Shown here: piece after piece, positions 4,683-45,879 of the stretch
Numbering within the stretch: position 1 is the stretch's first letter
How the letters are laid out: every line of letters starts with the position of its first letter
NCBI RefSeq assembly: GCF_963678975.1
Contig: NC_089274.1
Span: forward strand, 2,654,001-2,718,000
Origin: Dysidea avara
Taxonomy: Eukaryota > Porifera > Demospongiae > Dictyoceratida > Dysideidae
Direction of reading: 5' to 3'
Length of the DNA stretch: 64,000 nt
Notes under the pieces: model-generated
What the model saw: only the letters and a program-made list of their open reading frames with translations
The model's database searches: none
Told to the model about the DNA's origin: nothing
Program-made: the position numbers and the translations under genes

Positions 4683-7600
4683 TTAACAGGTTACTATTAC
4701 ATTTTCTTCTGGACCTAGTAGGCAAGGGATGATCTTAGGATTACAATAAAATCTACTTTCAAAAGTCTCTCTTGGTTGATAGTTCACTTCTGAGCTGACT
4801 AGGTCAACAACGTCATCTGTCAATACTGGCAAATTGTCTTGCTACAATAATATAACACAGATAAGGATATTGATATATGTACTTTAACCCACTTACTTCA
4901 TCAATTGGCTGTACTGGAAGTGGATAGCAATGTGCTTGCACAGGATTGATCACAGCATTGTTACCTTTCAAGTAGTCATAATCTAATGATTGCTGAGGTA
5001 AGTGCATGCATTCAGTTGCATTCAGCACAGCAGTAAAATTGATAGGATTTTTCCCACCACTGTCATAAACTCTGTTTTCATCAACAGAAGCAGGCTGTGA
5101 GCTGACAACATATGGAAGCTGTTGATAGTGAACATCATGGGGATGATAGTTATGTGGAGTATTATTTTCTTCAATGTTAGTAATCTCAGGTAGAAGAATA
5201 CTGTCATCATTATTACCACCATTATCTCCATGCTTGTTGGTAGTATTATTACTTCCTTTACTACCATTATTGATAGGTGTATATCCTCTTCCGTTTCTCC
5301 CAGTATTTCCTCCACTGCTACTATTGTTATTAGCAGCTCCCCCACCTCCAGCATTATTACTTGCACACCTCCTACCATGATAAGTTTTATCACTTGGTAA
5401 TTTTTTAATGGTAGGAGTAAAGTCACTACTAGCCAGCACAGTTTGAAATGGCTTAAGAGAAGCATTATTATTAAAACTCAGTGGCATACCAGCGTCTCTA
5501 AATATGCTAATTGGCTGGCCAGCAGAGGAACAATTTGTTGGTGGACCACATTTTTGATGGCAATAGTCCTTTAGCGTAGTGGACTTTGGGAAATTTGATC
5601 TTCCACAAATCACAACACATTGTTGTGGCTGTATGCTACAGGTGGGTTCTTCGAACTAGTGTAAAATGGTGTAATCCTTCTCCTCTTCAAAACTGGTTTC
5701 TCAAAAAATGGAACTCTGGCTGGGGCATATGGTGGAAGCTTCAATGGAGATTCTTTTGGAAGCTTAGGTGGAAGTTCTTGTGGAAGTTCATATAAACATG
5801 TTTTGACTTCCACTGGGATGCTCTCACTGAAGGACAAAGTATCAATGAAACACTTTTCTAGAAAATACAATATGTGCATCAAAGCTGTTTTGTCATAAAA
5901 CCAAAATGTATTTTTAACTGTGTAAGTGACAATACGTGCTTTTGTAGGTAGCAGATGCATACTCTGGAGATTACCACATGTTGTACCACTGCATTCAATG
6001 TGTGGCAGTACAGTTGTAATCGATGTGTACAGCCCAGTAATTGGCAGCATAGTCTTAGGAATAAAAGTGGAGCAACTGCTACAATCCTTTGTCAGCACAT
6101 CTTGCTGCCATAAATACAACACAATCCTCACGTACATGGCCTCATGAATGCAGAATCCAAGTATCTTTGGGTCACAGTAGGAATTTCCCACTTTTATTAT
6201 TCCTTTAACCAAGGTGAATTTTCCTGTGATAACCTTGCAAATCGATGAATCTTGAGTAAAAGTTCTAGTGATTGTGTCTATTGCAAGGTTAGCTTCAAGG
6301 TGCTTGGATCTATAAATGCATTTCTTATTAAAGTCTTGAAATAAGCAGATTGAGTAAATATGATTGAGGGTACTTTTACAGCTTTTATCTGCATTATAGC
6401 TTATAATCAAAAGAGCATTGAAAACAAGATGGCATTTATTAGGTGTTTCAATAATATTGTTTGCCGAGATATGACAGGAACAATCTGATTGTGGGGCTCC
6501 TTTGCATACTAAATTACATGATGGCAAGCAGTGAAACTGTTGCTTTGCTATAATACCAGGCTGCACAACTGCATTTGCTATGATTACTAAAATATGCAAG
6601 GCATTCTTTAAATATGTGGCAGGTTTAATATTAATGACTTTAATGACACAAGGTGGAGGGTATTTATGTCCACTGCATTCAGTTTCTTGTATCTTAGCTG
6701 GTGTGCAAGTACTCACCAAGTGACTATTATCAGAATTATCCAATGATATGATGTCTTCTGGATCTTGTGAAGACTTACTTAACGCAACTATTGGATCAGT
6801 GAAATTAACGGAAAGTGTATTATCAAGACACACGATAGTGTGTCGTGCGGCCCAAGAAGCCGGCGCGCCACACCGTGAGTATATTAACAGGAAGAAAGAA
6901 AACGCAATTTTCACACCTATGTAGCTCTGTGATCCCTTATCCGATTGGAACCAAATTTGCTAGAGACGTGCCGCCCAGTTAGGGCAGTCTACATACCAAA
7001 TTTGAAGAAAATCGCTCAAGCCATTTCCGAGATACGAGCGAACAAAATTTCGTTTTAATTTCTTCGTTTTTTTCTTCTTCATTTCGCACACTTCGCAAAA
7101 TTCGCCATAAAACACGAATGCGTGCTTGGATTGGGCTGAAATTTGGCACACTTAAAGGGCTCATTAAGGCGGATCTCCGTACCAACTTTGGTAGGAATCC
7201 GATGAACATTCACGGAGTTATGACCGATTATTTGCGTAAAATAAGGTCGAAGGTCTGTCACGCCTACAGGGTAAACCCCTTGGAGGAATCAGTTGAAAAT
7301 TGATATGTAGATGGAGCAACCATCGTAGGAGTGCCTTTTTGTGGTTTGAAAGGAATCGAGATAAAGACCATGGAGATATGACACAAAACCCAACCTGTGT
7401 CAAAATTACGCGATCGATTTTTATGAATAAAAAAACTATTAGTTTTCGTGTCTACCAGGCAAACCGCTTAGAGCAACAAGCTGAAAATCAGTATGTAGCT
7501 GGAATAATCATCATAGAAAGTTCTTGCAGTAGTACAGAAGAATCGGATTACAAATCACTGAGTTATGATTCGAAAGGCAACTACGTGCAGCAAATGCGAG

Positions 7601-10600: not shown

Positions 10601-13600
10601 AGAAGTTACCTTGTAGAGGGTTCAGCTACAAACAAGTCACCCTGTAGAGAGATCAGCTAGAAACAAGCCACCCGTAGAGAGTTCAGCTAGAAGAAGTTAC
10701 ACTGTAGAGAGTTCAGCTACAAAGAAACTACCATGTAGAGAGTTCAGCTGCAAACAAATCACCCTGTAGAGAATTCAGCTACAAACAAATTACCCTGTAG
10801 AAAGATCAGCTAGACGTTACCTTGTAGAGAGTTCAGCTACAAACAAATCACCCTGTAGAGAGTTCAGCTAGAAACAAGTCACCCTGCAGAGAGATCAGCT
10901 AGAAACAAGCCACCCATAGAGAGTTCAGCTAGAAGAAGTTACATTGTAGAGAGTTCAGCAGTTTAGCTGCAAACAAATCGCCCTGTAGAGAATTCAGCTA
11001 CAAAAAAATCACCCTGTAGAAAGATCAGCTAGAAGAAGTTACCTGGTAGAGAGTTCAGCTACAAACAAATCACCCTGTAGAGAGTTCAGTTGCAAACAAG
11101 TCATCCGGTAGAGAGATCAGCTAGAAGGATCACTTTGCAGAGAGGTCAGCTACAAAGAAATCACCCTGCTTCATCTTTTCTTCTTCCTGTAGTAAAGAAA
11201 AAAATGACAGGTTAAAAAGCCCTAAAGCTGGCCATAGGCCGACTTTGGGGTATACAAATACAAAAAGAAGTGAAATCTAATCCAAAACAGCCAAGCTGTA
11301 AAAAACGAGTGCGGCCCTGAGAAAGGCTATGGTGAAAAAAGATGTGAAATCCAAGGTGGCGGCCAAGAAATGGCTGTGATGGTAGGTTAATGGTAAAAAT
11401 TTTAATAACAACAATTCAGTGAATTTGGTGCCGCTTGGTCTTGGTACAAAATTCACCTGAATTGTCGTTATTAAAATTTTTACCATTAACCTACCATCAC
11501 AGCCATTTCTTGGCCGCCACCTTGGATTTCACATCTTTTTTCACCATAGCCTTTCTCAGGGCCGCACTCTTTTTTTACAGCTTGGCTGTTTTGGATTAGA
11601 TTTATCTTACAGGAATATATTTGATGGTAATATTGAGGATTTCTGCAAGCAAAACTCTTAGCTTTATGACTGTTCAATGCTGTAGAAGTAATTCCCAATG
11701 TGTTTTTGTGTTTATTCCAAATTCGCAAAGGAGAAGATTGGCGAATTTCTGTGAGTGTTTGCAGTGAAGAATCAAGTTTATCCATTGAATGACTAGACCA
11801 AGCCACTGTAATGCCTTGCAATTGCTGGTAATTTGTATTACATTGCATAAGTGAAAGCTTAGTTGTACAAAGAGGTATTACTTGATGTACTGGAAGTAAA
11901 ATATACTCTTCAGGGATTAAACTCCAAACAACTTTGAGAAAATCAAAAGTTAATTGAATAGTTTCACTACACGGTGTAAGTACAGTGGTACTAAAGAGAA
12001 ATACACCACACTGTGTTCCTTGACAACTCTCATTGCAATGTCCATTTATCAGTACAACTTTCACTTTGACTGCTTCTGCACTGATGCAAATAACTTGGTC
12101 TTGTGAAGAGAAAAGAACTGTGGTGTCAAACATAAAGTTGCAGTTTTTCTTACCATTCACTACATGTATTTTTTGTGGTGCACATATAAAAGGACTTCTA
12201 GGGGAGTGAGGCATATGTAAGGCATTCAGAGTCACCAGATGACAGTTAGGCTGGTCTTCCTGCACTTTCATTGCAAAAGTGTGAAAACACTGACCTGTTT
12301 TGTCAGAGTAAGTGTTATTTGATTCTGAAGGGTGAACCATTATGACCTGGGTTGCAGTTAGGTTTATATGCTAGCGTGATCTACTAAACAATTGTTACGA
12401 TTAAGATAAGCTATATTTGATTCTTGTTGCTCATATTCAGTGTTCCTTGCATCTTCATCAGTGCACTGGGTTGTGGTAGTTATTTCTTGACTGGATAGAA
12501 TGTCTCCAGATTCCTCTGGGATCCTTCTCACTAATGTGGAGGCTTTTTTAACCTTTAAACTGTTATTTGATACATCAATGTCATTTGCCTCCTCAGTTTC
12601 ATTTGGTACTTTCCCTGCACTTGTTAGATGACCTGGTATGGCTACTAGAGAATGTGGTTCTGCACTTTCTAACTGAGGTAAAAGTTTGAAAGGTGGATCA
12701 TTCCATTGTCTTTTATTTACCCATGTAATCTCACCATGGTGAGGCTGTTGTAGACTTAGTTTGCTGAGAATCTGCTGTGATTTTTTTACTTTGCTACCTG
12801 ATGTGTTCCATGAATGTTCAAATCTACTACAACATTTGTCTTTCACTTCTTTACTTTTTTTGACAGGTATTTGTGATAGCATGGCTGTAATATGTTCTGA
12901 TTTCAATGTCTTCCAAAAGATAGTGTTCATTAGGTTTGCCCAATTAATCTGAAATGATTCTGCAGTGATATGCTTCATGCAATAGTATTGACTGTCCTTG
13001 AAAATTACTGTGGTTGCCAGTTTCCATTGCAGAAAAGCAGTGCCTAACCAATTAAACATAAGTATTTCTATGTAGGCAAAAGCTAAGCACATCATCGAAG
13101 TTCTATGCTGACAACAAGCTGGAATTTGCAAGAATTGTAACTGATGTTGCATCTTTGATTGAAACACTGTATCCAGCTTCATAAGGAATTGTTCGGATAT
13201 AGCTGCTGATCGCATAAAGATGGCTGGTAGAGTCTGTGTCTTGAAACATTTTTGATACAAATCTGATAAAGTTTTCGTTGGTGGTTCAGACTGCTGTAGT
13301 AAAATATCAGCATGATTTTCTAAGCAATGACTTGACTGATCAAATGTTGCATCGTTTGTTGGAGAGACCATCCTGTCAGACACTCTGTTTAATGATTGAG
13401 CACCCTTTCTTGATGAGGCTTCCCTTTCAGACGTTCTATGAACTATACCAGTATCTCTTACTAGTGCAGAGACTTCAACAGGCACAGTTACCACAGTGTC
13501 AACACCTTTCATTGGTGTAACTACCCTATTAGATACTCTATCTACTTTAGCAGTATCAGCACTATCTAATGGCCTCTCGGAAGTATCACTTAAAACAGTT

Positions 13601-14596
13601 TGAGGTGCAACAGGTTGCACTTGAAGATCAGGAGATAAACCAGCATCATAATTTTGGATTAATATTTCTACTTTGTGCTGTAATGTCAATGAGCAATGTG
13701 TTTGTTCTAAGCAAACAGCTTGTAAGTTATGCAATTCTTGTTTAACTAGCTTTTTCTCGTGTATTACGCTAAACATTAAGTCTGATGATTTTGCCAGCAG
13801 ACTAGCTACGCCTTTACGCATATTGATATATACCATCTTTTCTGTCTTGCTAACAATGGTGTAAGTAACCTTTTCTTCTGTTAGTGATAAATCATATTTA
13901 TAATTTTCTGACTTACTGATGCTAGGTGTACGTGGACATGATGAGCCAGATTCTGATAGTTTATGAGTGCTTTGTGGGTATTCTACACATAAATTGTTAC
14001 TTAAATGTTTGCAAATTAACAGTGTCCTTTTATCAAACTCAGGATGGTCTTTTGAGTTTTGGACAATTGGAGGTTGTATGGAGGTGTGGTCTGAGCATCC
14101 CATGACCTGAAACAACATAATGTGAAAAGTCTAGGTAAGATCACTTTTGTTATTACAAGCGTTATTATGATTACAAGCTTGAGAGTTAAGAATACAGACA
14201 TACATAGATACATTTAATGGGACCTCATGCAACTGTATACACTGGACAACATCACCATGTATACCAACCAGGACAAAGTAGCTGTATTACTGTTATCGTC
14301 TGCATCAAATCTCAAGAAAACACTTGCGGACAGCCAGATATTGATTTTTTTTTAAATTACCAACACCTGATTTTTGGTTCGCCTGCCAGCACATTCACAA
14401 CTCACATGGCTATAGAGGCCAAACAAAGTCACCACAATAACAAACTCACAGGTGACATGTGGCTTTTCTGGTTCGACAAGTGGTCTGCCTTTTGCACTTT
14501 GCCTTTCCTTTTATCTTCAATTGCATGGTTGTCTTCTTCTTCTTTATGCAAGGAAACCAATATCACCATACATACTGACATGAGCAAGTTCTCCAT
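4683..14596 (-). CDS. Large predicted secreted protein, unknown family (about 1,500 aa)
   Basis: Exons on the minus strand: 14596-14450, 14106-12399, 12324-11611, 6787-5694, 5628-4897 and 4841-4683; the stop is TAA at 4685-4683. The first exon starts MENLLMSVCMVILVSL, a good signal peptide, then turns charged (HKEEEDNHAIEDKRK). Donors include GTGAGT (14449), GTAAGA (11610) and GTAAGT (4896), and all phases close. The middle part (exons 3-4) is rich in paired cysteines and beta-type segments. A Pro-Lys-rich spacer (about 5790-5700) and an Asn/Gly/Ser low-complexity stretch (about 5380-5210) follow. I see no convincing transmembrane helix and recognise no domain. Two points are weak. The intron 5693-5629 has a poor donor (GTTTTG) and could instead mark a frameshift. 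The 12398-12325 intron was chosen by phase. The long intron 11610-6788 holds a mobile element. The family and function are unknown; an extracellular or matrix role is inference. Confidence 0.65.
7640..11165 (+). repeat. Minisatellite, 30-31 bp unit, with higher-order repeat
   Basis: The units are variants of gtagagagttcagctacaaa followed by caaatcaccct (31 bp). Other unit types end in agaagttacctt or agaaactaccat. About 110 units are present. Types follow one another in a repeating order, and between about 9340 and 10750 a block is duplicated with a period of 697 bp: the rare variant gtagagacaaacacatc is at 9404 and 10101, and gttcagctaaaagaaac is at 9801 and 10498. Confidence 0.9.
11275..11601. 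repeat. Terminal hairpin of element copy 1
   Basis: Two arms of about 150 bp, nearly identical, surround a short asymmetric core (about 11413-11460). The arms contain atctaatccaaaacagcc and its complement at the outer ends. The core reads ggtgccgcttggtcttggta on the plus strand. Confidence 0.9.
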
Positions 14597-24689: not shown

Positions 24690-26246
24690 GGTAGGGTCCG
24701 CAATGCGAAAAATCGATATCCTCCAATCAACTACCTAACTATTGTCATGTGTTAGGCTAAGTGTAACTTGAATAACACCAGCGTGGCAGCCAAGTTTGTT
24801 ACTTTCTTCTGGTAGAAAACGATACAAATGTCTTAAAATCACGTGATTTTTCGCTGCAGCGGTTTGTAGGGTTCTTCGTATGCCACGATATTCACTCTCA
24901 ACATTGTTCAAGTAGTCTATCATCAACTCAAAGTATTGGTGGTTTGATTTTATTGGTCATTTTCTGGTGGCAGCACGATCTGTGCAGCTTTTTGACGACA
25001 GACAAAATGTTTCTTCCTCTGGAGCGCAGGAAAAGCAGAGCAGCAACTGCGCCGTAGGTCAGCAATGACCAGTACTAGGTAAAGTACCTGCATGCGGAGT
25101 ATGGTTATAATTGAAGCTTGTTAGCCATCTGGCTGAGCCATCTATATGCTGAAATTCGGCCAAAATGACGCGATTTTTGCAAACAAATACCAGAATGGTT
25201 GATACATCAGTGAGACAGTCTCCAACAGCAAGGATACGAAGCTTATAAACACCTAACAATACGGCTATCTCGCCCAGTAAACGCATAGAGCAGTCCAAAG
25301 CATGAAATAGGCACTCACGTGATTGATATTCAAATCTCCGAAAATACAACTATAATCTATTCCAATGACCTTAAAATCACTTGGAATCAAGTGACAATCA
25401 GTTTGTGTACGTTAGGTTCAGCATCTCGACTAGCCCAGCAGTTTAAGACTTTTCCTACGATACCATCATAGTACAAAACACACCTGCACTGGCCCAAACC
25501 ACGTCTGAGTGAACAATTAACACAAATATTTACAAAAGGAGCACATCGCATGGTTCCTATTCAGAAATGAAAGCGATTTCATGGGTATTTCCGCAATTTG
25601 AGTTTCAATCACGTGAGTGCCTATTTCATGCACTGGATTGCTCTATGCGTTTACTGGGCGAGATAGCCGTATTGTTAGGTGTTTATAAGCTTCGTATCCT
25701 TGCTGTTGGAGACTGTCTCACTGATGTATCAACCATTCTGGTATTTGTTTGCAAAAATCGCGTCATTTTGGCCGAATTTCAGCATATAGATGGCTCAGCC
25801 AGATGGCTAACAAGCTTCAATTATAACCATACTCCGCATGCAGGTACTTTACCTAGTACTGGTCATTGCTGACCCACGGCGCAGTTGCTGCTCTGCTTGT
25901 CCTGTGCTCCAGAGGAAGAAACATTTTGTCTGTCGTCAAAAAGCTGCACAGATCGTGCTGCCACCAGAAACTGACCAATAAAATCAAACCACCAATACTT
26001 TGAGTTGATGATAGACTACTTGAACAATGTTGAGAGTGAATATCGTGGCATACGAAGAACCCTACGAACCGCTGCAGCGAAAAATCACGTGATTTTAAGA
26101 CATTTGTATCGTTTTCTACCAGAAGAAAGTAACAAACTTGGCTGCCACGCTGGTGTTATTCAAGTTACACTTAGCCTAACACATGACAATAGTTAGGTAG
26201 TTGATTGGAGGATATCGATTTTTCGCGTTGCGGACCCTATCCAAGG
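24690..26246. repeat. Large near-identical palindrome
   Basis: Left arm about 24690-25345, right arm about 25600-26246, spacer about 250 bp. The arms match over ~650 bp with very few differences. Each arm contains the same two ORFs in mirrored direction: one includes LGEIAVLLGVYKLRILAVGD (25349-25059 minus and 25567-25872 plus), the other MMIDYLNNVESEYRGIRRTL (24926-24735 minus and 26005-26196 plus). No family is recognised for either. The palindrome is richer in CpG than its surroundings. Confidence 0.85.
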
Positions 26247-36434: not shown

Positions 36435-39400
36435 TTAAAATGTTCGGCCTCCCTCACTATCTTGTGAGTTACTCCATAGCTGAAAATGCTCCCATGCATT
36501 TGACCCAAAAATGCTACTATACTCTGTGTCTACTTCGATCATTGGAAACGAATTTCTTTGCTGCAGTATTATATATATATATATATATAGCAAATATAAA
36601 GTACGCTACATGAACGCATGTGCTTACCCAACTGGTGTTCTTTAGTACAGCAATTCTCATTAGTGCTCTAATACCAGATTCATCTCTGTCTGTTACTTCC
36701 AAAGGATATGGAAGCACTTCATAACTTTTATCTATTTCCAATCCTCTTTCTGGTACTTGCTGCAGAGGACAATAATTATAAACAAAGCAATGAATATCAA
36801 ACATTATTTTTCTACACAGTATATAGTGACTTACTCCATTGCCACCAACTCCCTGCATTGTTACAAACTGTTTAGGCTTCAAATGCCAATCTAAACACTC
36901 AACAGGAGATGGTACAGGATACACCATTAAATGCTCTTCATCACACTCTTCAGTAGCAGACTGTGTGAAAATTTCACATGTAAGTACCAACCATGCATAC
37001 AGTTCAGGCTTACTGCTAGTTCCAACTGATCCTCAAGGTTAAGACTGATAATTCCTCCATGTACTTCAGCACTTGTCAGTGGTAGCTGATTGTGGTAATG
37101 TGACTCTGCAACAAACTCTAAAGCTTTTTTGATTTTTCCTTGGGTAAAGATGTTTGCATGGCCATTATTGTCTTCTCCATGACCATCATTGTCTTCTTCA
37201 TAACTCTGTTGTGTGTTGTGGTGATAGGTACGTCCAGTCACCAGTTGCGAGTTGTTCCCATAATCTAGCATGACACATGCATCAAATGTACCCCCAATAG
37301 TCAAGTGTGCATTGTTTGTAGAGTTTAATGAAGTGAAAGAAGAATCACCTTCAAGTGCATCCTCAAACAGTGAGTGTACATTACAAGTTTGACCAGTAAC
37401 CAATAGTGTGGAGGTCACATCACCTTCTTCATATTCTGCTGGAGATTCAATTGACTGATGGTCATGTAATTTTTCCAGCCTTAGAACTGTGTAACAGAAA
37501 TTAATAGTCTCACAATTCGCCTGGTATAGCAATCTTGGAAAAAACAGTAAACACTGGGGCAAATGTAAATCAGTTGGTATCAATTCCATTGGTGGCACAA
37601 GTAGTTGATTATTGTGGTTGAGTAACTTTAGATAATTTTCTTTAACTACATCATGAAAATTCCAATTATGTTTGATTAATAAAACAACGGATTTCTGCAC
37701 TATTGAGTTCCAGGAAGCAGATTGCAGTTCTATAAATACCAATGAATGGTTGAAATCTGTCATTAAAGCACGTCTGAATTGTGAATCATCTGACCTACTA
37801 GTATACGAGAAGGTAGAGAACATCCTGACTTTCACAATACTACTACCAAGTTGCTTTCCTACTATGGTAAGTCTCATTTCACACACAGACAAGCTTCTAA
37901 CAAAGTTGATTAAAACACTTGATGAATTCAAATTCAATAACGATAGTAATAAATGCTCAAACGATTGCGTCAAAGTATCATGATCTCTTGGATTATTTTC
38001 ATTAGCAAGCAAGTGAACAGGTATATGGATAATGCAATCAGTGCACTTGACATTTCTATTCCTCACACAGCAATAGGTGGTGGTTGTCACCACAAGTATT
38101 CCAAAGATGACTGACACAAAAAACACAGCAACGTATCCTAGTAAATCAGCACAGTCTATAAAGCACTCATTGAAAATAAAAATACAGTCATAATGGTAGT
38201 CCTTGTCGTTGCAAATCAAATTTCCAGATGGTATAGTATGATGATGCCAGAAGCAGTTTTGGTATTGTCTATACGTAACACTCATTACAAAAAGATCATC
38301 ATAACTATTTATGATGGCATCATAGCTATTAATATTCTTGTATAAATCAAGTTTATCAAACGATAAATGATGGCCTTGCCACAAAGGAATGGTATCAGTT
38401 AACAATTGTATAACAAAATTAAAAATCTTATCATTATTACTACGTAATAAATCAATATCTTGTGACCCTTTCATTACCAGTCTTGATAACTTCTTAAGGA
38501 TATTCAATCTGTGGACATTAATGATGTAATTTACTTTAATCATATCTGAGTTTATTCTACAGTTATCAATGTTGACTGCAATCAATATATTAGCATTAGA
38601 CCCTTTACTAAGAGCATCTGTACTGTACCAAGGGTTAAGATGCAGTGGTGCTTCACTGTAGTTGACAATGTATATCCTTTGTTGTAAGAGGATAAAACTG
38701 TATTTCTTTGACAGTCTAAAATGTAATTGTCCTTCAGTGTTTTTAAGTATAACGAATTTGTTTTGATAACTTGCTATGCCATGATTCTCTTTTACCCATA
38801 AACTAAGATGGCGAGGAATTATATGGAGGCTTAGTGTTCCATGTAAAACAAGATCACTGTTAAAATAACATGGAACCTCAGGATATTCTAACAACAACGC
38901 ATCATGCCAATCTACCAAGCTATCTTCTTTAATCATTCCCAGTATTGCATCAGCACGTGAGCAATTATGTTGAAGAGAAGCCAAGTAGATTGAAACATGT
39001 TGGTTGTGGTACTGTCTGTTATAGACACTTTCTTGGACTAAAGCTGAATTTGTATCATTAGTGACATCCTTGTCAGTGAGGATGTCAAGTTCACAACCAA
39101 GATTGATCATCTCTTCACAATGACTAACATTGTTCTTTGGCAACAAAGATTTATGCTTTACAGAATAAACACAAGGCTTGACATCATTTGATTGTACATG
39201 TGAAGAGCTGAGACAATCACAGGTCCATTTGTGTAACTGTTCTCCTGGACCATTACAGTTTCTTGTCTGGAAGAAAAAGCAGTTCTTGAAGTATTTGCTT
39301 TCTGGTCTGCTTTGGAAAACATTGTGATATGTTATTGGAATTCGGCTTGCAATTGGTTTGATGGCATGTTTCTTTTCCATCGCAGAAGATTTGTGATTTG

Positions 39401-42400
39401 GTGAAAGGTCAAAGTATAACTTGGAATATAGTTTCATGGACATGGAATAGGAGAGATCGTTGTACCACAAATTGCTATTCTCACTTAAAGAGTACATCAC
39501 ATGGAGGTAGGGGGTTTGCATAGTGTCCATTGGTGCTTGAAATGATGTCACTTCACTGAAAATGTGAGTAAATGAACCACAGGCTTCCACTGCTTTCAGG
39601 GAAATCAGCTTCTGTTTAGAATTACTTATGTAATTCAAAATCAGAAAACAATTGTCACATAGTAAGTGATTACGCTCTCTTGCAATGCAAGCACGACACA
39701 TAGTTAAAAAGATTGTCAGGTGGTTATCTGTAATTGTGGAACCAAAATGCAGGACAGTATCAGTATCTTTTATCAAGATATCAAATGGATTGTTAATATA
39801 CCAAGTGAAATACTCCTTGTAGTAGAATGCATTAAAAATGTCATCTCTGGTAAAAGGCTGTTCCCCAGGAAGTTCAGTCAATTGGTAAGCCTTATTCTGT
39901 GATTCTTCTGATTCTGGCAGTTTCATCCACCTTGCTTGTTCAATTTCAGTTGCAATCATTGTGTTAAATTGAGAATATGCTATATTGTTGTTGTAAACAT
40001 AAAACTGTTCTTGATCAAATGGCAACAATATGTGCTGCTTTGGAATTAAGCCAAAACCCTTTAATGGTACATTGTGGTATGGAAGAGGAGTTATATCTGA
40101 GAATGATCTGCTCATACCAACCCTTTTTGGATTCCTGCTACCCAAACATACTGGAATTGTTAAGCCGAGCAAGACATCCATATTTCTTATGTCATATGAT
40201 GAAAAACTTTTTACATTGCTCTTGCTGGTTGATTGCTTCTCGTCATGTGGTATTGATCTGACTAGAGCAAGAGCTCTAGCTCTACTAGTATCCTGGTAAG
40301 CTGATATGTTATACCTAGAAAGTGCAACTGATCCAGGACATTGACCATTAATTCTTTCCATGGTTTGATTTGAAAGAGGTGGGCTAAATTGTGTAACCTT
40401 CATACCACATGTATAAAGACTTACTCCAAGGAGAAGCACCAGAAGTACAAAAAGTAGCAATATAAAGGAAATAGTGGTAAAACTCCACACAAATTTAAAA
40501 TATGTGTTGCTATTGTTACCATCACCACCTTCATCATTGCTGTCATCATTGTAATGGCTGCTGTCACCATCGTAATGGTTAGATGAACTATGCTCACTGG
40601 TAATATCTTCTTGTGTGTTGGTAATATCTTCTTGTGGGTTAACATTGTCATCATCACCAACACCTTCATCTTTCTCGATACCATCAATGCTGCCATGGCA
40701 AGTACTGCTGGAGGTTTTGCTTTTATCTTGTTCACCAACACTGCAGTAGAGACTGTCACTAGGAAATTCATCCTGTTCAGTACAATCTTCAGTGTTATCA
40801 CAGTAGTCATCGGGTTTGAAATTTTCATATTGACCAGTGTATTGAGCAATCTGATGGTCAATATTATCTGTATCTTGATCTCTGGTCAAATTGTCTTCAA
40901 ATTGTCTACAGTCTTCAACCTTGTGGTGATTGTCATTGTCAAATTGTGAGTGCACTTCAGAGCTGTGACACACATCATTGTCAACAGTTTTTGAATTGCA
41001 TCCTTTTAAATGCAGTATCTCATCTACTCCAGTTTCACCAGCAGTTTGAATGAAGGCTTCTAGTGAATGACATAGCAAGTAGTACCAACAGAGTGTGGTT
41101 ACTTTTGAGATATATTTCTGGCAAAGCAAAGAACTATCACAAGAATCAAATTCAATTGGGCTAAGAGTGTTGCACAGGAAAAAAATAGGATTTTTGTCAC
41201 AAGCAATACTTGAATTTGAAGACAAGGTAACAGTATTGCTGCTCTCATTGCCATCTGCACCATGCACAGATGCATAGGTTTTGTGTACTTCACTGGTTGG
41301 TGCATGTAGGAATGCTTTTAGTTGCTCTTCTATGCCCACAGGACTTTTACTTACAGTAGCAGGCTGGCCAATGCTACTTGTAAGAGCTGGTTTAAAAACA
41401 TCATAATGGTGTTGTTCATATTGTGAGTGCCAAACAAATTCACCACACCCATCAATGATGGCATCAAAACATTCCTTAGTTGTTGGTACCGAAACAACTT
41501 GCCCAGGAGTTTGACTCATCAAGCCTTTGTACAAAACAGGTGAGAAAGGCATTGCCTTTTGTGCTGGAAACTCTATACTAACATCACAAATGGTAGTTTC
41601 ATCACTGTAAGACATTTTAAGATTTTTAGATGCTCTCAAAGAAATGGTTTTGTGCATCTTAGTTGGGAGCTTAGGAGCAATGCAAGTTTGGAGGATTTTT
41701 AAATCACCTGTTTGCACAGGCTTTATGAACACAAGGTTTTGTTCAAACCCAATACTATTAAACCAGCATGCATCATTAGATTCATGGTAATCAAGGCGGC
41801 CAATAATATTACACAACCAAGCAAATACTTTGGAAGCGCTTGGTCTGTTATGTGGATCACTATCCACACAGCGCTCAACTAGCCTCTGCAAAATCCTATG
41901 TCTCAGCATTTCTCCTCCTTTTAATTCTCTCCCAGTAAGAGTAAAATATATGACACAGCCAAACGAATAAATATCAACCTTTTCATCATAGCTACAGTTA
42001 TCGCCTGATGCTTCTGGTGGCATGTAATTAGCTGCACCAGGTGCTTGAGTTGTCAGCTTTTCACCATCAACAAGAAACATGGCTGATCCAAAATCTCCTA
42101 GTTTTGGCTTGTGGTCTTTGGAGAGCAAAATATTGCTTGGTGTAAGGTCACCGTGCACTATTTTTAGTGAGTGTAAGTAGCACTGAGCATCAGCTACACC
42201 ATGCAAAATCGTAAGCCTTTCTCGTAAGGGTATGTGTGAGTTTTTTCTGATGTAATTACTCAGAGATTGCATACATCGCTCCATAACAATATATGGAGGA
42301 GTGTCTGAATGTTCATCTGGGTAGTATGTTCCAAAGAACCGAACAATATTGGGGTGATCAAGCTTACTCATTATGCTGGCTTCATGGATAAAATACTGAA

Positions 42401-43660
42401 TGAAATAATTTCTATAGGCCATAATGTTTTCATCATTGATATCTTCATCAGTTGCACTCTTCAACAATAAGGTGTGTATTTTTTTAACTGCACATTCAGT
42501 GCTGCTATTTATGTAGCCTTTCTTCACTACACCATATGCTCCTCTTCCAATAATTTCATCAGTAATTGAAAGATCTTCTCTACATTTTGCAACCAGTCTC
42601 TCCCGAACTACATTATTTGTCTACATAACATAACACAGCACCCATAATGCTATACCTCTATGATTCATTATCAGTATATTAGGCATATGACTAGTAGAAG
42701 TTTTCAAAGGTAACTGTTAAAGTTTGATGACCATCTGAGCATGTTAAAATACATAGTAGTGCATGTGTTGTGTGGCATAGAAATGGCAGCACTGGACAGA
42801 CAAGCTTCTAGATTCCCAATTGTTTATTGTAGGTTTTTTACTTTAAATTACAGCCACTCCAACTAGTAATTTCAATAACAAAGTTAACTACTCAATTAGG
42901 GTTTGTTCTATTAGAGTATATTTATCTACATTTTGCTAATGTACATACTTTTTATTGATAGGTGCATGTTTAGTATATATAGGGCTGATCTGATACCTTA
43001 ACAGTAGCCCAATAGGAATTTGTGTATTTTTAAAAATAGGTTGCTATGCATTTAATTGAAATCAACACCACTGCAGGTGTCTCTTGGCTGCCACCTTTGA
43101 TACCATATATATTTCATTCTAGCACTATTTGAAGGCCATTTACAGCTATGACAAGTTTTTTTTTAAATAAGATAAGAAAATAGTCCTGGGTGTTTGAGAT
43201 ATAGGATACGTACTGATAGTAAAATCTAAATAAAAGCAGGCTTGTATCCTTTAAAAGCTTCTAGTTATACAATATAAATATGATACTAGCCAGCATACCT
43301 TGTCAGGATAGATAAAAACAAATACAGCAATTCCAAATTCAGCTAACAGTATGATGCCAAGAAGTACAAGGTACTATACAAATATAATCAACATAGCATT
43401 AGTGCACCATTTGCTATTACTACTTACTATCATCAGTACATAGTACAATTCCACAAGATCTCCCATTGATCCCAGTAGACCAAGTAGAAACAATATTGTT
43501 ATGCAGATACTAGTAGGACCAGTCAACCTACCACCATCAACTTTGCCAGGTTTCATGCTACTGTTTATCTGATAAAGAAGATACTTGTAACTGTACAGTG
43601 TGTTTCATTGTTTGATTTGCTTACATGAATCAATGTGGCCAACATGTACAACAGTAGCAC
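36435..43660 (-). CDS. Multi-pass membrane receptor with non-RD kinase and SEFIR-like tail
   Basis: Exons: 43660-43625, 43568-43428, 43373-43299, 42620-37014, 36960-36835, 36759-36628 and 36560-36435 (TAA). All are phase 0 with GTAAGT/GTAAGC/GTATGC donors. If the ATG at 43645 is used, the product is ~2,075 aa. In order: two hydrophobic segments resembling the tetraspanin TM2-TM3 hairpin (GLLGSMGD, then LLAEFGIAVFVFIYPDK); a kinase (about 104-355) with glycine loop GRGAYG, lysine in CAVKK, HGDLTPSNILL, GDFG and MPPEA; an acidic linker; a TM (40494-40409); a ~750-residue ectodomain with paired Cys; a TM (38145-38068) with Cys/Arg stop; and a cytosolic tail that may be a diverged SEFIR domain (about 38035-37455). 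HGD replaces HRD, so it is a non-RD kinase. The 5.6 kb exon is open throughout. Linkage of the first three exons, and SEFIR identity, are inference; kinase identity is strong. Confidence 0.75.
42621..43298. other. Intron before the kinase exon
   Basis: 678 bp between the hydrophobic exon and the kinase exon. It contains a motif copy (gttctattagagtata, 42904). No large-extracellular-loop exon was found on the minus strand. Confidence 0.5.
43299..43660 (-). other. Tetraspanin-like hydrophobic exons (probable N terminus of the kinase gene)
   Basis: Exons of 36, 141 and 75 bp. The sequence has SICITILFLLGLLGSMGD, then an acidic residue, then YYVLMI joined to YLVLLGIILLAEFGIAVFVF. In tetraspanins TM2 ends in G-x-x-G-C-x-G followed by E and a hydrophobic TM3 containing E and ending in a short F-x-x-x-D, which this resembles (family knowledge). 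No large loop with CCG is found before the kinase exon, and phase 0 joins it directly to that exon. It could also be a separate decayed gene. Confidence 0.5.
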
Positions 43661-43740
43661 CTAATTATTTATTTATTATTGAAGTTGTGCAAACAAGGTT
43701 GCCTTTGCACCAAAAAGCTTAGTCTTACTTCTCTAAAGTA

Positions 43741-43805
43741 CACACACACACATGCACACGCACACGTACACCCACACACACCCACACAACACACACACTC
43801 ACACC

Positions 43806-43845
<40 letters not shown>

Positions 43846-43884
43846 CAACACACACACACACACACACACACAACACACACACAC
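43741..43884. repeat. (CA)n microsatellite
   Basis: Near-continuous CA dinucleotides with small interruptions. It produces spurious ORFs on both strands. Confidence 0.95.
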
Positions 43885-44718
43885 CTATACATTATGAAAC
43901 AGACATTGTTACAAATGAAGTACAGTGATGTCATGATAAAAAAGCCAATACACAGGTGATGAAATCAATGAAAGGGTCAGGCCTACATAAAAGCTTTCAC
44001 GTCGACTTCATTAATAAGAACCAGTATACAACACGGAATAGCACTACAAATAAATGGGTGTTCAGAAAGAAGGAATGGAAATAAGCATTTCTAAAGAAGG
44101 CATGTAAGGATGGAGTTAGAATTTCAACATTAAAAAGCCAGAAACAATTCCAGACCAGGTGGTGACTTGATCCCCAGTCAACCTGCAATCTAGGCCAGTG
44201 CTTATTACGGAGCCACACAGCTTTATATCAAGAAAGCCCTCTGCATTGAACTTATATACAGTATGACTTTTTGTACTTCACGCGGCTGTTTACTAATTAC
44301 TATTATAATACATGATATATACTCTAGGGCACCAGGAAAAGAGGAATAGGTCAAATCCTTGCACATGAATTCATATTTAAACATACTCTGATTAACCATG
44401 TAATCAGCTAAGACTCTATGATGTACTTGTGCTTGTAGTCAATGTGCAAACCATTTCATGTATGGCATACATTATGATTGCTTAGTAGCTAGTCTAGAAT
44501 TGCTTCATCATCAAATCCAGGACCATAAAAATAAAATAAAATTAACATACATTAACTAAACTTATATTTATTTATTTATTATAGTGTCTATAGGGATCAG
44601 CAAAGAGGCTACAGAAAATCTTTTCATTAATTTGCAGTATACAGCTGATGGACCACTATACTCATCCCTGTTGTATAAATAGAATTTTTGCTATATACTG
44701 TCCTGCTTTTCTGTCCTC

Positions 44719-45030: not shown

Positions 45031-45879
45031 TATTTATTTATCAAGACACACGGTAGTGTGTCGTGCGGCCCAAGAAGCCGGCGCGTAACACCCGTGAGTA
45101 TATTGACAGAAAGAAAGAAAACGCAATTTTCGCACCGCCGTAGCTCTGTACTTCCTTGATGAAACAAGACGATTTTTGCTGTGGACATGCCCTCCAACTG
45201 CAGCACTCCACATTCCAAATTTGAGCGAAATCGCTTCTCGCGTTCCCGAGATATGCGACTTCAAAAATTGGCTCAGTTTCTTCGTTTTTTTTTTCTTCTT
45301 TTTCTTTTTCTTGTCGCACACTTACAAAAACTGCTATAAAACGCGAACGCCATATCCGATTACCTTGAAATTTGGCACACCTAAGGGGGATATAAAGGCG
45401 CATCTCGGTACCAACTTTGGCTGGAATACGATAAACAGGCAAAGAGTTATGAGCTATTATTCACGAAAAATAACACCAATATGTTGTCACGCCTACAGGG
45501 TAAACCGCGTATGGGAAGAAGCTGGAAATCGGTGAGTGAATAGGTTAACTATTGAACCTCAAACCTTTTGTGGTTTGAAAGAAATTGAGCTAAAAAACAG
45601 GAAGATACAACGAAACAACCAACAGTGTGTAACAATTACGCAATCGAGATTAGCTAATAAAAAACGACTGCTTGTCACGCCTACCAGATAAACCGCTTGG
45701 GGTAATGCTTTGAAAATCGTTGTACAGGTGGAGTAATCATCTTAGAAAGGCTCATCAATGGTGTAGAAGAATCAGATAAAGCCACGGAGTTATAACACGA
45801 AATCTAACTTGGTGCAGCAAGTGCGAGATCGAGATACTCTAATAGAGCAGTCATCCTAATAGAGCAGTCACCCTGAAGA

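Follow-up and report, generated by a model that had tools for sequence, protein, structure and literature searches.

In a 64,000-nucleotide (nt) stretch of the genome of the sponge Dysidea avara (contig NC_089274.1, positions 2,654,001 to 2,718,000; hereafter the window), we analyzed a predicted gene on the minus strand that encodes a protein kinase preceded by a predicted membrane hairpin and followed by a long extension with two further predicted helices. This gene is probably a chimera, in which a truncated tetraspanin devoid of its first transmembrane helix (TM1) became fused in frame to a family kinase, which would give a membrane-anchored kinase. The fusion of a truncated tetraspanin to a kinase of a large family in this genome is supported at the sequence level.

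The gene model comprises six minus-strand exons (window positions 43556-43428, 43373-43299, 42620-37014, 36960-36835, 36759-36628 and 36560-36435), joined by GT-AG introns that are all in phase 0, and predicts a protein of 2,064 amino acids (aa). Exon 1 carries the start codon at 43556, a short basic N-terminus and the helix TM-A; exon 2 (75 bp) encodes TM-B; exon 3 (5,607 bp) is read from a short loop remnant through the kinase, an acidic linker, TM-C, a predicted ectodomain and TM-D into most of the tail, which is completed by exons 4, 5 and 6, with the stop codon ending at 36435. The initial annotation had given the gene the limits 36435 and 43660, of which the first stands, whereas the upper limit has to be drawn in to the start codon at 43556. 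The order that it had proposed, hairpin, kinase, TM, long segment, TM and tail, is reproduced by the gene model, and exon 3 is unbroken through the kinase and both TMs as it had claimed: the frame 42620-36930 is open over 1,897 codons, while stop codons make up 6.1% of the six-frame codons here, so that even 1,600 open codons would arise by chance with P ~10^-44. In addition, a small codon model, for which long frames at six other kinase loci supplied 2,696 training codons, preferred the true frame over the five others in all four exon 3 segments, with small margins. A GT-rich microsatellite is found at window 43740-43905, some 200-350 bp before the start codon.

The tetraspanin hairpin and its junction with the kinase exon

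The N-terminal membrane hairpin, which had been noticed but not identified, turned out to be of tetraspanin origin. When exons 1 and 2 plus 12 residues were used as the query, the Pfam family Tetraspanin (PF00335) matched the N-terminal 80 residues over profile positions 55-110 with E=2.4e-8, passing the family cut-off; this part of the profile corresponds to TM2-TM3, so that TM-A (exon 1) is tetraspanin TM2 and TM-B (exon 2) is TM3. A search of the genome (550.8 Mb, 108 contigs) with the hairpin and junction as the query returned 12 matches at E<=1; three belong to the gene itself, and the other nine fall in five tetraspanin genes, all of which lie on the same contig, at 2.358, 2.364, 2.372, 2.395 and 2.542 Mb, with the hairpin at 2.697 Mb. 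These five genes, 155-339 kb away, are the nearest relatives of the hairpin that were found, and the TM2 exon has 59-74% aa identity to theirs. The 75-bp length of the TM3 exon, the exon ends and phase 0 are common to the hairpin and all five. At the DNA level, four of the five relatives align with 68-75% identity from the start of TM2 onwards, covering the TM3 exon entirely or for the most part, and the longest alignment extends 33 bases into the intron that follows. The donor's family thus has at least five members, with the same TM2/TM3 exon layout, at 2.358-2.395 and 2.542 Mb of this contig (loci L032-L035).

DNA similarity to the relatives was not detected in the region upstream of 43525, the expected place of the small loop and TM1. 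A query of TM1 and the small loop reached at best E 0.09 in a tblastn search of the window, and a large-loop query at best E 0.87, neither being significant, while the same queries recovered all four of the donor loci fetched as a control with E 1e-15 or better. Minus-strand hydropathy scans of 42.5-64 kb, together with tblastn, likewise yielded nothing significant for an upstream TM1 exon. The window's best TM1 match (E 0.09) was TM-C itself and was read as a likeness between hydrophobic stretches; the sequence KYLLYQIN, immediately before the start codon, is reminiscent of a motif in tetraspanin TM1 and was judged a chance resemblance, the TM1 exon of the relatives being different. A tetraspanin TM4 was not seen in the gene, for which no separate search was made. 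Homology to tetraspanins was found for TM2-TM3, and the four TMs and complete large loop of a tetraspanin were not; since neither TM1 nor the large loop has a significant match in the window, and both queries recover the donors, the gene is classed as a chimera and not a tetraspanin.

The fusion point appears to lie just inside the kinase exon. The tetraspanin exon that follows the 75-bp TM3 exon opens with TEEIVREQM or a similar sequence, and exon 3 opens with TNNVVRERL (codons 1-9, 42594-42620). When aligned from the splice site, exon 3 agrees over its first 27 bases with four tetraspanin large-loop exons at 18, 17, 15 and 13 positions, and 18 of 27 is reached by only one of 8,300 AG dinucleotides on both strands of the window, which is the real acceptor. 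The kinase exon thus seems to owe its acceptor and about nine codons to a tetraspanin, which places the breakpoint inside that exon, just downstream of these codons. Further, the kinase frame opens exactly after the TAG of the acceptor, and the earliest in-frame ATG in exon 3 falls at residue 135, past the VAIK lysine at residue 114, so the kinase must be reached by splicing from an upstream exon. The TM3 exon would be the natural splice partner, and this is the strongest argument for one expressed chain.

The constraint on the hairpin leans towards its use, short of proof. Over 58 shared codons, the ratios of nonsynonymous to synonymous substitution rates (dN/dS) against the four nearer tetraspanins were 0.24, 0.43, 0.39 and 0.27, and against the fifth the ratio was 0.15, with dS near saturation. 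Compared with the majority sequence of the four relatives, the hairpin carries 34 substitutions and one in-frame three-codon deletion.

The kinase domain and its family

The kinase domain annotated previously (41844-42560) was confirmed by Pfam matches to PF00069 (E=1.7e-40) and PF07714 (E=1e-31), and it also matches many kinases in the PDB. The glycine loop, the VAIK lysine, the αC glutamate, the HGD aspartate, the catalytic asparagine, the DFG motif, a PPE in place of APE and the subdomain XI arginine are all present, which together with the domain match places it in the eukaryotic protein kinase superfamily. Only the HRD arginine is replaced, by glycine (HGDLTPSN), which makes this a non-RD kinase. 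Non-RD kinases can be independent of activation-loop phosphorylation, and the kinase studied here may not require it either.

Among 935 candidates in the genome, 132 matches were scored, including the kinase itself, and its identity to the others was 32-49%. Of the 25 distinct kinase loci that were read, 23 have HRD, and the two without the arginine are the window kinase (HGD) and one other, L002 (HCD). The same two pair in a 25-tip tree with a support of 0.999. This sister kinase (L002/L010) lies 92 kb away (L010:809-9541, minus strand; positions 2780809-2789541 of the contig), is 49% identical in the kinase domain and belongs to a 2,911-codon open frame, and similarity to the window gene was detectable in the kinase only, with nothing outside it. 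Eighteen further matches to its extension were detected; all lie on contig C2 (15.7-19.5 Mb) and contain internal stops, and they are in part colinear. The sister is apparently a repeated long sequence joined to a kinase. Two pairs of long overlapping open frames in the style of this extension occur on the minus strand of the window at 4816-6959 and 11489-14130; no Pfam family matched them at E<=0.01, and the frame 12367-14130 faintly matches the extension (phmmer E 0.004).

Later helices, topology and the C-terminal tail

Two later membrane helices had been proposed within exon 3, and both are evident in the hydropathy profile, with peaks of 3.13 at aa ~780-803 (TM-C, 40416-40487) and 2.78 at aa ~1561-1582 (TM-D, 38079-38144, followed by a short basic stretch). 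When the 1,724 residues after the kinase were shuffled 2,000 times, nine shuffles reached 2.78, and the highest value was 3.24. Between the two helices lies the predicted ectodomain (38145-40415), an orphan segment of 757 aa with 23 cysteines and six NxS/T sites. It contains no Pfam domain at E<=10, and a query of the segment found no match among viral contigs. Searched together with the exon 3 part of the tail, it retrieved only itself from the genome at E<=1 (two candidates scored; exons 4-6 were not part of the query), and, together with most of the tail, it had no match in the PDB at E<=10.

A cytosolic kinase is judged the likelier topology. The charges of the N-terminus (+3/−1), of the hairpin loop (0/−2) and of the residues before (+1/−6) and after (+3/−2) TM-D fit an arrangement with both termini inside, as the N-terminus is basic, the hairpin loop is acidic and the TM-D flanks agree. 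Moreover, loss of TM1 leaves the TM2-TM3 hairpin with an even number of helices, therefore the N-terminus and the kinase can both be cytosolic. The label "receptor" is a fair, if tentative, inference for the predicted protein.

The following course of events would account for such a gene. One of the tetraspanin genes nearby would have been copied, and the copy would have lost TM1 and the small outer loop. The exons for TM2 and TM3 (the latter of 75 bp) would have been retained with their splice sites, as would roughly the first nine codons of the large-loop exon, within which the truncated copy would then have been joined in frame to a kinase gene. The product would be a membrane-anchored kinase with four predicted helices, held at the membrane by the hairpin and TM-C, in which the hairpin is reversed relative to its orientation in tetraspanins and the N-terminus and kinase are cytosolic. 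The chain would exit through TM-C, expose about 757 residues outside or in the lumen, and return through TM-D to a cytosolic tail. Contact or a ligand might cluster the 757-residue sensor segment, bringing the cytosolic kinases to phosphorylate one another and their substrates, with partners possibly docking on the tail. More tentatively, and with less confidence than in the chimera itself, we suggest that the protein may represent a new class of animal membrane kinase that arose by local exon capture, combining an inverted TM2-TM3 hairpin, a cytosolic non-RD kinase and, flanked by two further helices, an exported sensor of orphan sequence, in an order that reverses the one seen in animal receptor kinases.

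Several observations weigh against this picture. The extension of the sister kinase has no strong helix (top hydropathy 1.86, below the shuffle median of 2.04) and is unrelated to that of the window gene; a common architecture of the two was tested and rejected on these grounds, their similarity being confined to the kinase. Receptor character is therefore not a family trait, and membrane character seems special to the window gene. At the junction, the protein match amounts to only four of nine residues, a level equaled by about ten of the 8,300 AG sites. The hairpin shows a weak signal of selection (17 amino-acid changes versus a neutral mean of 20.8, P=0.08), and its low dN/dS may come partly from the branches of the relatives. 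The flanks of TM-C oppose the favored topology (+1/−7 in the 30 residues before it, +2/−1 after it), and the stretch after TM-B is near neutral (+5/−6). Glycosylation motifs are not denser in the predicted ectodomain (6/757) than in the linker (4/439) or the tail (5/482). Finally, single-sequence structure models were meaningless, with predicted local distance difference test (pLDDT) values of 29.9 for the ectodomain and 35.5 for the tail.

The strongest competitor regards the tetraspanin exons as a relic: the kinase would be made from a different first exon that escaped recognition, and the hairpin would not be translated with it. This would fit the lack of significant constraint on the hairpin and the failure to find the relatives' TM1 and start-bearing exon in the window, and it would spare exon 1 the newly arisen start codon that it otherwise requires. 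Against it, every splice site of the hairpin is kept, the sole indel is in frame, and none of the 58 hairpin codons has become a stop, whereas 45% of neutral simulations gained one; moreover, the kinase exon itself has an acceptor and initial codons that look tetraspanin-derived. We consider a relic rather unlikely.

It is also conceivable that the chimeric protein kept the tetraspanin orientation. In tetraspanins, both ends of TM2-TM3 face outside, and by this rule the kinase and linker would be outside or lumenal, the 757-residue segment cytosolic and the tail outside, as in a kinase of the secretory pathway. The charges flanking TM-C speak in its favor, but the basic N-terminus, the acidic hairpin loop and the charges at TM-D favor the opposite topology, and ATP is cytosolic, which makes a kinase inside the likelier case. 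A secretory-pathway kinase thus appears improbable.

The tail, whose exon 3 part (37014-38078) is followed by exon 4 (36835-36960), exon 5 (36628-36759) and exon 6 (36435-36560), had been described as SEFIR-like, which would have put kinase and interleukin-17 (IL-17) receptor-type signaling in one chain. This description was not borne out at the profile level. The Pfam search of the tail gave nothing at E<=10, and none of the 18 matches of the SEFIR profile in the genome is the tail. With a profile of six local SEFIRs, the tail was not among the matches and the whole protein scored −1.1 bits; with a profile of 13, the tail ranked 427th of 516 scored rows, mostly shuffles and other pieces, and with a five-sequence subset it ranked 126th of 499. 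At this level the SEFIR tail was rejected, on the Pfam search, the genome matches and the 6- and 13-sequence profiles.

Pairwise comparison was less clear-cut. Against L057, a TM plus SEFIR frame, the tail scored z 4.05, compared with 3.97 for the true SEFIR pair L057-L060, and tail pieces took ranks 1-3 of the 38 tested against L057. Of 2,000 shuffles, nine scored as well with BLOSUM45 (z 3.8) and 42 with PAM250, but 323 did so with BLOSUM62, and z was 1.7 or less against the other five SEFIR genes. Because certain true SEFIR pairs do not exceed this score, some being near or below zero, a very diverged SEFIR tail is conceivable. Overall, a SEFIR identity is unsupported, the score with L057 being borderline, and a chain uniting the kinase with SEFIR signaling is highly improbable. 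Elsewhere in the genome, L057 (C12:25333863) and L063 (C12:25818729-25819521) are TM plus SEFIR frames resembling IL-17 receptors; PMC12909245 gives one or two SEFIR proteins in Dysidea avara versus the 18 matches found here.

Comparison with known systems and significance

The gene resembles tetraspanins (PF00335) in its TM2 and TM3 exons, in exon length, phase and splice sites, and in the first large-loop codons, and differs from them in having a kinase in place of the large loop and in that TM1, the small loop and the large loop were not found. With the expanded kinases of this genome it shares the kinase domain, and it differs in being non-RD, in its 1,897-codon frame and in its membrane helices. 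IL-17 receptors likewise have a TM followed by a cytosolic tail, but the tail of the window gene is not SEFIR by profile. In metazoan receptor kinases, the ectodomain comes first, followed by one TM, with the kinase last. A kinase, a TM and an ectodomain are joined in one chain there as well, yet in the window gene the kinase precedes TM-C and the predicted ectodomain within one open exon, so the receptor-kinase order is not the one found.

The initial annotation knew of no described family with this layout, a claim that stands only in part. Bacterial PASTA-type Ser/Thr kinases (PknB, PrkC and StkP) have a cytosolic N-terminal kinase, a TM and a C-terminal extracellular sensor, as described in PMC4601284, and thus share the kinase-TM-sensor order, a likeness of layout only. 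Unlike the window gene, they have one TM and PASTA repeats and are without a return helix or tail, and no PASTA repeats occur in the predicted ectodomain, where no Pfam family matched. What seems new is a eukaryotic polytopic membrane kinase with a tetraspanin-derived anchor; in the open-access literature, no published announcement of a tetraspanin-kinase fusion was found.

Two further features of the window are apart from the gene. An inverted repeat occupies 24692-26239, with arms of 652 nt (24692-25343 and 25588-26239) that are 98% complementary and separated by 244 nt. A similar short translated stretch (KIAFSFFL.IYSR, APASWAARHT) occurs on the minus strand at both ~45040-45200 and ~6850-6960, and is perhaps a copy of a mobile element.

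The lack of any detectable similarity between the two sister genes beyond the kinase domain suggests that a very long single exon next to a kinase can change fast. If the window gene is transcribed, it would be a domain capture caught while relatives of the donor are still present on that contig, and the loss of one helix would have let a tetraspanin hairpin be reused in the opposite orientation. If the architecture is true, animal signaling would gain a polytopic kinase whose sensor is C-terminal, an arrangement otherwise known from bacteria.

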